From positions 62,001 to 126,000 of the forward strand of contig NZ_JACJSP010000009.1 in the NCBI RefSeq assembly GCF_014698235.1: 64,000 nt of DNA, written 5' to 3'. Position numbers and translations under genes: made by a program. The notes below the pieces were generated by a model, which searched no databases, was not told where the DNA came from, and worked only from the letters and a program-made list of their open reading frames with translations. Of the stretch, positions 8,558-27,916 are shown piece by piece. The DNA is from Limnothrix sp. FACHB-406. GTDB taxonomy: Bacteria > Cyanobacteriota > Cyanobacteriia > CACIAM-69d. Position 1 is the first letter of the stretch. The number at the start of each line of letters is the position of its first letter.

Positions 8558-8581
8558 GACTTGCGAGGAACGTCAGATTGG

Positions 8582-8675
8582 GCGATCGATTGGGGCGATC
8601 AACTTGGGCGATCAACTTGGGCGATCGACTGGGGCGATCGACTGGGGCGATCGACTGGGGCGATCGACTTGAGCG
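8582..8675. repeat. 13-bp tandem repeat built on the HIP1 core
   Basis: Eight consecutive copies of a 13-bp unit close to GCGATCGACTGGG. The GCG of each copy starts at 8582, 8595, 8608, 8621, 8634, 8647, 8660 and, degenerate, 8673. Every intact copy carries GCGATC. The array fills most of the gap between the P450 start and the methyltransferase stop. It has no spacers, so it is not a CRISPR array. Confidence 0.9.
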
Positions 8676-25135: not shown

Positions 25136-25292
25136 GCTCACGGGTTGCGGTGCAAGGTGGAGCCTGTGAAAGCACAACCAAAGCGCCCCGCAATGGCTGA
25201 TGGGTCACAGGGCGATCGCCACCCAACAGACCAGGGATGCTCGTTTCTTTGTGGTGGGTTGTGGCACGCGGAGATGGTCGTTGAATGGGGGG

Positions 25293-25335
25293 CGGCGCAT
25301 GGGAGGTGAATGGAGATTATTATTTCCTCCCAACC
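25293..25335. repeat. Degenerate REP hairpin beside the RAYT gene
   Basis: Diverged copy of the REP family. GCGCATGGGAGG (25295-25306) faces CCTCCC (25326-25331), giving a shortened stem. It is preceded by the same flank, ATGGTCGTTGAATG, that precedes the next copy at 25361. Confidence 0.6.
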
Positions 25336-25360
25336 GAATTATGGTCGTTGAATGGGTGGC

Positions 25361-25417
25361 GGTGCATGGGAGATGAACCCAAATTGTTGTTGATTTCCCA
25401 GCGCTCTCCCATGCACC
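25361..25417. repeat. REP hairpin abutting the RAYT stop codon
   Basis: Perfect 12-bp arms GGTGCATGGGAG (25361-25372) and CTCCCATGCACC (25406-25417) around a 33-nt loop. The right arm ends one base before the stop codon of the transposase gene (25418-25420). It may also act as a transcriptional end signal for that gene. Confidence 0.85.
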
Positions 25418-25903
25418 CTACGGGTCGATCGAGCGGTGGATGGTGGAATAGGGCCAGTCGGTGGGGGTGATGGCGTGGCCGTGTTTAACGGGGTTTTGGT
25501 GAATGTAGTGGATGTGGTTTTGGAAATCGGCCTCATCACGAATTTGGTGTTCCCAAAACCGACGTTGCCAATAGGGGTGATCGCCTCGGGTTTGACGCGA
25601 TCGACTGCTGGGTAAATCGATCGGTAATTGACGAGTGCAAACCCGAGTGGTGCGAGTTTTGATCAGCCGCCACCGGGTCGAAAAATCGTCGTCGCCTGTC
25701 GGTAGCGTCCAGATGCAATGGAGATGATCGGGCAGCAGCACCCATGCATCGATCGAAAACGGATAGGCGGCTTGGGTGGTGCGAATGGCTTGGCGCAGGG
25801 CTTGCCGGGCGATCGGCTCACAAAGCCACGGGTAGCGACCATAGGTGACAACCGTAAAAAAGTACGTGCCCCCCTCCGATCTCCAGCGCTGATAATTGGG
25901 CAT
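25418..25903 (-). CDS. REP-associated tyrosine transposase (RAYT, Y1_Tnp family)
   Basis: Single-domain HUH-type transposase of 161 residues, related to IS200/IS605 TnpA. RAYTs cut and join single-stranded REP hairpins. Visible: N-terminal GTYFFTVVTYGRYPWL, the HUH motif within LPDHLHCIWTLP (near 57-68), RRFWEHQIRDEADFQNHIHYIHQNPVKHG with the catalytic tyrosine on the final helix (HYIHQNP), and WPYSTIHRSI at the end. The length is normal, so the gene appears intact. The start MPNYQRWRSEGG is typical. It is flanked on both sides by matching REP hairpins, the expected arrangement for an active or recently active RAYT/REP set. Confidence 0.93.
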   Translation of the reverse strand: MPNYQRWRSEGGTYFFTVVTYGRYPWLCEPIARQALRQAIRTTQAAYPFSIDAWVLLPDHLHCIWTLPTGDDDFSTRWRLIKTRTTRVCTRQLPIDLPSSRSRQTRGDHPYWQRRFWEHQIRDEADFQNHIHYIHQNPVKHGHAITPTDWPYSTIHRSIDP

Positions 25904-25971
25904 CGCATCCCTCCCCGCAACAGATCACCCCATCCATTATTCACCACCCCACAAATCCCACCAATCCCGTA

Positions 25972-26173
25972 GGGTGCATGGGAGCAAGCCCCAATAGTCA
26001 CGAAACGGTTAATTCGTACTCCCATGCACCGCAGCCCGATTGTCACCCAACCGATCATGGTCGTTGGATGCGTCACAGGTGGCGGTGCATGGGAGATGAA
26101 CCCAAATTGTTGTTGATTTCCCAGCGTTCTCCCATGCACCCTACATTTGTATGGGAGCCTTTCGCCAGTTCTC
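25972..26173. repeat. BIME unit 1: two REP hairpins, 202 bp
   Basis: Contains two hairpins with the same 12-bp arms (GGTGCATGGGAG/CTCCCATGCACC): 25973-25984 with 26019-26030, and 26084-26095 with 26129-26140. The two have different loops. The whole unit is repeated almost exactly 319 bp further on (26291-26492). The loop of the second hairpin matches the hairpin at 25361, so two loop classes exist. Confidence 0.85.
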
Positions 26174-26285
26174 GGCGGCCAACGTTGAAGAAATGACCGT
26201 GAAGTTCAACGTCAAAATTGGTGGTCAAGGTGGGATTCCCTTCTTGGTGCGCGGCTCCATGGACTACGACTTTGGAATCGAGTAG
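26151..26285 (+). pseudogene. Remnant of a Trypco1/CU044_2847-like protein
   Basis: A 44-codon frame between the two BIME units, ATG 26151 to TAG 26283-26285. Its product (AFRQFSAANVEEMTVKFNVK then IGGQGGIPFLVRGSMDYDFG) resembles the C-terminal half of the small beta-rich CU044_2847 or trypsin-co-occurring domain 1 proteins. Those typically end in a similar VEFxVKxxGxAGIP pattern. The N-terminal half is missing: the REP unit ends just before residue 1. The second BIME copy (26469 on) repeats the first dozen codons and then stops, consistent with a broken and partly duplicated gene. The family assignment is from memory of the pattern and is tentative. Confidence 0.45.
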
Positions 26286-26290
26286 CCGTA

Positions 26291-26492
26291 GGGTGCATGG
26301 GAGCAACCTCCAATTGTCACGAAACGGTTAATTCGTACTCCCATGCACCGCAGCCCGATTGCCACCCAACCGATCATGGTCGTTGGATGCGTCACAGGTG
26401 GCGGTGCATGGGAGATGAATCAAGATTGTGATTGCCTTCCAAGCCTTCTCCCATGCACCCTACATTTGTATGGGAGCCTTTCGCCAGTTTTC
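26291..26492. repeat. BIME unit 2: two REP hairpins, 202 bp
   Basis: Direct repeat of 25972-26173 at a constant offset of 319 bp. Hairpin arms are at 26292-26303 with 26338-26349, and 26403-26414 with 26448-26459. The loop of the second hairpin has diverged from copy 1 (ATCAAGATTGTGATTGCC instead of a GTTGTTGATT type). It ends about 6 bp from the stop codon of the next minus-strand gene. Confidence 0.85.
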
Positions 26493-26497
26493 GTCCG

Positions 26498-27916
26498 CTA
26501 CGGTTGGTTGAAGGGGGTTGGGGCGGGGCCCAGGTCTTGGAGCTTGCGGGCGAAATAGCTTTCGCGGTGTTGCAACTGCTTCGCCAAAATCGCTGCCTGT
26601 TCGTAGGCAATGCGGGCCCGATCGCGCTGATTCAAACTGACAAACAAATCACCCAACTTTTCGTAGGTGTCCATCATTCCGTAGCCGTCCGCCGCCTCGC
26701 GGGCCAACTCCAACAGGCTGATATAAAGACTGGCGAGCAGATCAGGTTTGTCGGCAAAGGCGGGGCGGCTGCGATAGAGAGTGGCCAGGCGATCGAGCGC
26801 TTCTCGGGCAATGCCCAACTGCTTGATGGAGCGGGCGGCGGCGGCCGTTTCGCGATATTGCAACACCGCCTCTTCCACACGATCGGCCCGGTCAAAATTG
26901 GCAGCTAACTCGCTCATCAAGGGCGGAATGAGCCGCACAATCCCCAATGCTTGATAGACCCCCAACAAATCGCGCTGGGCGGCGATCGCCTCATCCCATT
27001 GGCGCGATCGATTCAGCAACATCACCAATTCCCGCGCATAGCGCACCTCGGCCTGGCGATGGAGCGGAATGGTGGGTTCTGTGCCCGGCGGTACGGGAAC
27101 CGCCACCCAACGACCCGCAGCAATTTTGGCCCGCTCGATCGCCAGCAGCTCCCGGTAGGCATCCACAGCCGCCGCATCCTCAAACAGGCTGGCTCGCAAT
27201 TGACCGATCGCCACCAGATATTTTTCAATTCCCGTGGGATCATCAGCCGTTCTGGCCATCAACAGGCGTGGTTCCAACACCGCCAAGGCTAACTTGGGCG
27301 CACGCACTTGGTAATAGGCCAAGCCCAGGGCCTCCAGCAGGGCCGGATCTTCAGGGATGGGCAGCGGTTGCTCGTCGGGCAAAACCGGCTTGGGGCCCGT
27401 TTGCCCCGCTTGGATCGCCTTGATTCGATCGGTCACCACCCGCGTTTCTTCCACGGCCCCTTCCCGCCAAGCCAGCTCGCCCACCCGTCCCAGGGCTGGC
27501 AACTCTTCAAACAGGCCCAAAAACCGCCGCAATCGCAGTTCTCGATTCCAAAGGGCGAAGGCTTCTAGGGTTTTGCCGGCCCGCAGGGTGGCCGCCGCCT
27601 GGAGGTTCAATTCATCGAGGGCCAAACGCAGCCGATCGCGCTCCGTGGGCGACAGTTCCCGCTTCATGGGAAACTCCGGCAGCAGCGGATCCGCCTCTAA
27701 CAGTTCCAGCGGACTGGGCGGAAATTCATCCCTGGCCGGCCGCGAAAAGATGTCAAAAATCGGCAGGTTATCCAGGAAAGGCAACTGGGCGCGAGCCACT
27801 TCCCCGGCGCTGGCCAAGACCAGGGCGATTGCCCCCGCTGACATTGCCCACCGCAGCGATCGCAGCAGTCCATTCAGGGAAAATTCAGCGCGGGAAGGAA
27901 CGCAACGGGCAGGCAT
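26498..27916 (-). CDS. Exported TPR-like protein of unknown function
   Basis: Not recognised as a named protein. It has 472 residues with an N-terminal basic region and hydrophobic segment (about 22-43) ending GEVARAQLP, a good signal peptide with an AxA site. The mature part is almost entirely helical. Repeated Ala/Leu-rich helix pairs occur (ALDELNLQAAATLRAGKTLEAFALWNRELRLRR, LGLAYYQVRAPKLALAVLEPRLL, EEAVLQYRETAAAARSIKQLGIAREALDRLA, YEKLGDLFVSLNQRDRARIAYEQAAILAKQL; only short parts matter), consistent with tetratricopeptide repeats. It probably acts as a periplasmic scaffold. It is divergent from the acyltransferase at 28048. Confidence 0.75.
   Translation of the reverse strand: MPARCVPSRAEFSLNGLLRSLRWAMSAGAIALVLASAGEVARAQLPFLDNLPIFDIFSRPARDEFPPSPLELLEADPLLPEFPMKRELSPTERDRLRLALDELNLQAAATLRAGKTLEAFALWNRELRLRRFLGLFEELPALGRVGELAWREGAVEETRVVTDRIKAIQAGQTGPKPVLPDEQPLPIPEDPALLEALGLAYYQVRAPKLALAVLEPRLLMARTADDPTGIEKYLVAIGQLRASLFEDAAAVDAYRELLAIERAKIAAGRWVAVPVPPGTEPTIPLHRQAEVRYARELVMLLNRSRQWDEAIAAQRDLLGVYQALGIVRLIPPLMSELAANFDRADRVEEAVLQYRETAAAARSIKQLGIAREALDRLATLYRSRPAFADKPDLLASLYISLLELAREAADGYGMMDTYEKLGDLFVSLNQRDRARIAYEQAAILAKQLQHRESYFARKLQDLGPAPTPFNQP

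Follow-up and report, generated by a model that had tools for sequence, protein, structure and literature searches.

The window analysed here is a stretch of 64,000 nucleotides from Limnothrix sp. FACHB-406. At 25418-25903 on its minus strand lies an intact open reading frame for a 161-aa REP-associated tyrosine transposase (RAYT), recognised by profile and structure-sequence matches and already described in an earlier note on this DNA as an intact HUH/tyrosine transposase. The NCBIfam model NF047646 matches the protein over positions 1-146 of 146 (E = 1.1e-57; 194 bits against a cut-off of 80), Pfam Y1_Tnp also matches, and Escherichia coli TnpAREP (4er8) aligns with it at E = 1.1e-38, with HxH and the tyrosine-containing motif YIxxNPVKHG both kept. 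GTAG recognition in E. coli TnpAREP involves W94, Q95, E100, H101 and R104 (PMC6006769), and these pocket residues (W, Q, E, H, R) are conserved in the window RAYT (WQRRFWEHQIR, compared with WQPRFWEHAIR in 4er8). An identity as an IS200/IS605 transposase was rejected, as NF033573 scored only 15.2 bits against a cut-off of 55.

Around the gene, the exact arms GGTGCATGGGAG and CTCCCATGCACC occur in five hairpins (25361-25417, 25973-26030, 26084-26140, 26292-26349 and 26403-26459) and a sixth, degenerate copy starts at 25294, in agreement with the identical 12-bp arms and single degenerate copy reported earlier. Read GTAG-first, the REPs have the layout GTAG-GGTGCATGGGAG-loop-CTCCCATGCACC and span 62 nt, with a loop of 33 nt (class A) or 34 nt (class B). 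The two classes are paired as inverted dimers with the GTAG tags outermost, and RAYT is placed between [B]-CTAC and GTAG-[A], so that two inverted GTAG REPs flank the gene.

A class A REP with a 33-nt loop lies at 25360-25421 on the minus strand, and its tag at 25418-25421 supplies the RAYT stop codon TAG (the complement of 25418-25420), so a hairpin does touch the stop codon, as had been claimed. This REP stands in tandem (67 bp) with the degenerate class-A-like REP at 25274-25333. Upstream of RAYT, a class B REP with a 34-nt loop at 25969-26031 on the plus strand (GTAG 25969-25972) forms an inverted dimer with a class A REP at 26083-26144 on the minus strand (GTAG 26141-26144). A duplicated dimer follows, with class B at 26288-26350 (plus) and class A at 26402-26463 (minus). 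The duplication comprises two plus-strand tandem copies of 221 nt, 25967-26187 and 26286-26506, which are 91% identical and lie at the 319-bp offset given in the earlier note. Between the two dimers, at 26145-26285 on the plus strand, is a 3′ fragment of a Trypco1/CU044_2847-family gene, so the unit of 319 bp is made up of one REP dimer and some 140 bp from that gene. Apart from the duplicated 47 bp, a 150-bp query from the fragment had no further match in the genome.

At up to two mismatches, the arm 12-mer gave 18 matches in the window, compared with 9.1 ± 2.9 in shuffled sequences, none of 100 of which reached 18. The two loop classes and the BIME-like build from two orientations that had been proposed both held up: 22 REPs split 11/11 by class, and loop identity within classes exceeded that between classes by 0.161, a gap as high in none of 2,000 label permutations. 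Among these 22 REPs, identity was 100% in the GTAG, 98.1% in the arms and 48.8% in the loops. A search for conserved loop structure with RNAalifold returned only the 12 arm pairs and single folds shared no inner helix, so the loops look unstructured.

Two other identities for these elements were rejected: intrinsic terminators, because no T run follows the arms, and internal-deletion MITEs of the RAYT cassette, because the dimers read GTAG-A..B-CTAC and the cassette core reads B-CTAC-RAYT-GTAG-A. Elsewhere in the window, at 8580-8669, a 13-bp unit, GGGCGATCGACTG, is repeated 6.9 times with 93% matches.

REP families across genomes

In its own 4.5-Mb genome (G000), the arm 12-mer occurs 30 times exactly and 59 times at up to one mismatch, compared with seven times for the backwards pattern. 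A covariance model (22 REPs) was applied to this genome and to two other RAYT-bearing Limnothrix-group genomes, G001 and G002, and detected at least 21 REPs at 14 loci, at least 17 at 13 and at least 29 at 19, respectively; these are lower bounds, with 150 of the 1008-1465 candidates per genome scored. Loop classes and loci were tallied on GTAG-first rows at E ≤ 1e-3, leaving out other-strand rows of the same sites. The further copies on which the earlier note made its reading depend are thus present in the genome. Three genomes of the same family, G003-G005, gave 0, 1 and 2 model rows, all of them weak, so the REP family is nearly absent there, and a search of the same three at E ≤ 1e-15 found no RAYT.

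Across 88 matches at 39 loci, the two arms covary: 66 cells had changed on both sides, compared with 17.1 ± 2.9 in shuffled data (none of 500 shuffles as high) and 0-3 in slid controls. The arm variation behind this figure comes from two related arm subfamilies, II and III, and covariation is seen only when they are included; among the 22 best REPs, with their almost invariant arms, there was none. Dispersed cognate REPs, covarying arms and a match to a curated RAYT family together sustain the claim of a RAYT/REP system in a cyanobacterium.

Subfamilies II (GGTGTGTGGGAG) and III (GGTGCGTAGGGC) have the same tag and a similar loop length and stand as III-II dimers. This heterodimer, a second long-loop REP family with different arms, is present in the three genomes (L186, L188, L194, L195, L197, L205, L210, L212 and L213). 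Linking II and III to the additional RAYTs that G001 and G002 carry was rejected, since those RAYTs have short-loop REPs of their own nearby and no model match; no RAYT belonging to the III-II family was found. Another GTAG repeat family (GTAGGGGCGCATCGCCATGCGCC) was seen at about 3120-3225 of L040; it is shared with the same spacer of G001 and has matches at many places in G002.

Position of the RAYT cassette

RAYTs 89% and 92% identical to that of the window are encoded in G001 and G002, respectively. The G002 gene has a frameshift near residue 39 from a 2-nt deletion (L046, near 2616), which is either a recent pseudogene mutation or an assembly error. Ratios of dN/dS were 0.18 (own-G001), 0.10 (own-G002) and 0.13 (G001-G002). 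All three copies have the layout B-CTAC-RAYT-GTAG-A and take the RAYT stop codon from the GTAG of the neighbouring REP, yet the cassette GTAG-A..B-CTAC-RAYT-GTAG-A stands at a different locus in each genome. The neighbours of the window RAYT are a GAF/histidine-kinase gene and a TPR-like gene; those in G001 are a TPR gene and an HTH/Uma2-like pair, and those in G002 an FGE-like gene and a zeta-carotene-desaturase-like gene, the last two sets being named by eye from translations.

Homology between the window and G002 covers 25359-26144, a block of 786 bp at 85.9% identity that ends at the hairpin foot on one side and at the GTAG tag on the other. The block common to the window and G001 (86.9%) stops at that hairpin foot too, but its other end falls inside the dimer spacer. 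Non-REP flanks are common to none of the three pairs of cassettes, as far as these draft assemblies reach. A strain comparison for mobility, as suggested in the earlier note, thus places the cassette at different loci in congeners, with REP sites gained, replaced or rearranged.

From these comparisons, we consider it probable, at roughly 0.7, that the locus is a functional REPtron with RAYT under purifying selection and that a REP-bounded cassette including RAYT has been relocated or re-acquired, most likely by GTAG-guided cutting and joining.

The differences in neighbourhood could instead come from large-scale rearrangement, joins made in assembly or errors in MAGs around an ordinary static REPtron. 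In its favour, the assemblies of the three genomes are drafts, and the RAYTs of two of them sit close to a contig end (G001:C29:1300, and G002:C1, which is 7.5 kb in all). We nevertheless regard this account as quite improbable, because the kinase and TPR genes that flank the window RAYT lie together on one G001 contig (C27), separated by two FGE-like genes and with neither a RAYT nor a model match there, and because the own and G001 contigs around the G002 desaturase site are colinear over 5.4 kb with no model matches. Beside the two FGE-like genes at the G001 counterpart of the window site (L178, 4684-7151) are REP-like remnants. No clean empty site for the window cassette was found in G001 or G002: unoccupied counterparts carry other filler, and G002 aligns with the window site on one side only.

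Synonymous divergence bears on a further account, in which the cassette passed laterally between Limnothrix lineages, or old duplicates were differentially lost, and RAYT never moved within a genome. The own-G001 RAYT dS of 0.298 is roughly double the values for three genes, flanking or single (0.163, 0.158 and 0.133), and the own-G002 value of 0.341 falls below that of the desaturase gene (0.498); as RAYT dS is out of line with the genomic values, lateral transfer or duplicate loss may explain some of the pattern. Other RAYT lineages, absent from the window's own genome, are present in G001 and G002, which also fits such exchange. Against this, all three genomes agree in B-CTAC-RAYT-GTAG-A, down to the stop codon in the tag, and a cassette transferred or duplicated to new loci would still have moved. 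We find this account rather unlikely.

Changes at individual REP sites

Relocation or re-acquisition of a REP-bounded cassette, the reading we prefer, is accompanied by differences at REP sites between genomes that are about 0.15 apart in synonymous divergence. Six loci of the own genome carry REPs of family I, and C1 adds a hybrid REP. In G001, the counterpart of the window site gives no model match, the dimer at own C4 is missing from the orthologous spacer in G001 (G001:C80), and the C5 REP site is common to both genomes. At the C3 site, the sequence touching GTAG and CTAC is identical in own, G001 and G002, and between these edges the own genome has a family-I array where G001 and G002 have a III-II dimer; this reads as one REPIN replaced by another exactly tag to tag. 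Compared with G001, own C7 and C12 have rearranged neighbourhoods.

Rearranged neighbourhoods are what one would expect if host homologous recombination between dispersed REP arrays, and not RAYT activity, moved RAYT together with its neighbours; block borders would then fall at REPs because the REPs are the homology. The neighbourhoods of own C7 and C12 and of G001 C29 and C73 are indeed shuffled combinations of the same segments beside REPs, and the own genome has REPs beside the HTH gene that adjoins RAYT in G001. At own C2, a stretch of 556 nt adjoining a REP (L189, 2613-3168) reappears, 95% identical, beside a REP at a different locus, G001:C6 (L193, 1930-2484), which also favours such recombination. 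However, the exchange at C3 links families with arms that agree only over some 9 nt beside GTAG, which is short for RecA. We treat host recombination as a serious contender, if a somewhat doubtful one.

RAYT cassettes in other cyanobacteria

A second candidate for cassette movement comes from G043 (g27, f25), a genome of another family. Here, two RAYT cassettes on different contigs (L241, 3939-4653; L242, 3043-3757) are 98.6% identical over 715 bp; the copies extend from 12 nt before GTAG to 15 nt after CTAC, and immediately beyond these points the sequence differs. That the copies end outside the REPs, with short shared ends only, counts against host recombination. Two further partial cassette copies are 90-91% identical. 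Other segments of the two contigs are similar as well (95% over 528 nt and 87% over 401 nt), so the pair may represent a segmental duplication with later change. A HIP1-like sequence, GCGATCGC, lies near both ends of the G043 cassettes.

Flanks were compared for 39 of 40 fetched loci together with the Limnothrix trio: G154, the sole member of its genus, was left out, G123 gave no pair, and pairs with a RAYT core less than 74% identical were dropped. RAYT pairs of g84 keep their place (for example G204-G335, at 97%, with both flanks common), as do those of g82 (G235-G209, a 4.1-kb block at 90.6%). Pairs among G116, G157, G271 and G107 of g25 have a common downstream flank, and G054, also of g25, has no flank in common with any of five. 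The conserved place in g84 and g82 is as a static REPtron would have it and indicates that RAYT relocation is not general; by the same token, divergence does not simply account for the lack of common flanks in Limnothrix.

Discussion

In the mechanism that we envisage, extrapolated from the biochemistry of the family, RAYT would recognise single-stranded GTAG-hairpins with GTAG as the guide, cut at their feet and carry A-B dimers to sites that are new or already hold REPs; the same GTAG-guided reaction, acting on the outer tags, would take RAYT along. For TnpAREP, binding to GTAG-hairpins in single-stranded form, cleavage chiefly at a CT next to them and strand transfer are established (PMC8266576), and by analogy the REPs described here were probably copied around the chromosome by RAYT.

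The locus resembles the RAYT/TnpAREP REPtrons described in the cited parts of three reports (PMC2817692; PMC6006769; PMC8266576) in its Y1 HUH protein (which shares 46% identity with E. coli RayT), its GTAG-pocket residues, the two inverted GTAG REPs near the gene, a stop codon at a REP and dispersed cognate REPs. It differs from them in the size of its REPs (62 nt, with loops of 33/34 nt) and in the presence of the cassette at three loci, where those parts give no sign of gene movement. According to the sections cited here, RAYT genes are always flanked by two inverted REPs, and multiple RAYT copies or a changed chromosomal location were not found (Nunvar 2010, PMC2817692); RAYTs are likewise described as single-copy, vertically inherited and without self-copying (PMC8049555). 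In the Limnothrix trio, known from drafts only, the gene keeps its chromosomal place in none of the three pairs; immobility belongs to the behaviour described for REPtrons and does not define a RAYT.

In their 5′ GTAG and inverted dimers, the Limnothrix REPs are also like the cyanobacterial families GTAG-12, -15 and -16 (Di Nocera 2013, PMC3733652), and in that account GTAG often supplies the TAG stop to a flanking ORF. As the families are characterised in the cited text, most stems are 6-9 bp (12-13 in GTAG-24) and loops are mostly very short (9-15 in GTAG-15), with one Bradyrhizobium type having a loop of up to 27 bp whose inner bases are complementary; by that description, 12-bp arms, 33-34-nt loops and no conserved inner pairing set the Limnothrix REPs apart. 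Like REPINs and BIMEs as outlined in the cited portions of PMC3116915 and PMC8049555, they form two inverted REPs with the tags outermost and are dispersed together with a RAYT; unlike them, they form an A-B heterodimer with two loop classes, and other sites carry a III-II heterodimer with different arms. Marinomonas REPtron Ma (PMC8266576, in the part cited) likewise has long REPs and large loops with few conserved positions, but its REPs measure 38-42 nt with irregular stems, in contrast to 62 nt and perfect stems here. As the stated default maximum loop of RepRanger is 11 nt (PMC12306157), 33-nt loops would be passed over.

Our literature search found no paper on RAYT relocation or on Limnothrix REPs. 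What is new is a RAYT cassette at three loci in three Limnothrix-group genomes, with own-G002 homology ending exactly at the REP borders, together with the C3 replacement and the G043 pair. A bolder proposal, which we advance tentatively and at somewhat less than even odds from comparisons of sequence, is that some cyanobacterial RAYTs are not domesticated: the cassette would be a transposon moving through GTAG-guided strand transfer, and REPINs would be exchanged GTAG-to-CTAC.

The finding bears on how REPs spread and on why RAYTs, which the cited papers present as domesticated genes, persist without moving themselves. The shift of the Limnothrix cassette within a small divergence, the G043 pair and the C3 swap are natural experiments with defined unit borders, and these borders can be tested in vitro. 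If the bolder proposal is true, the stretch between the tags would be the unit exchanged.
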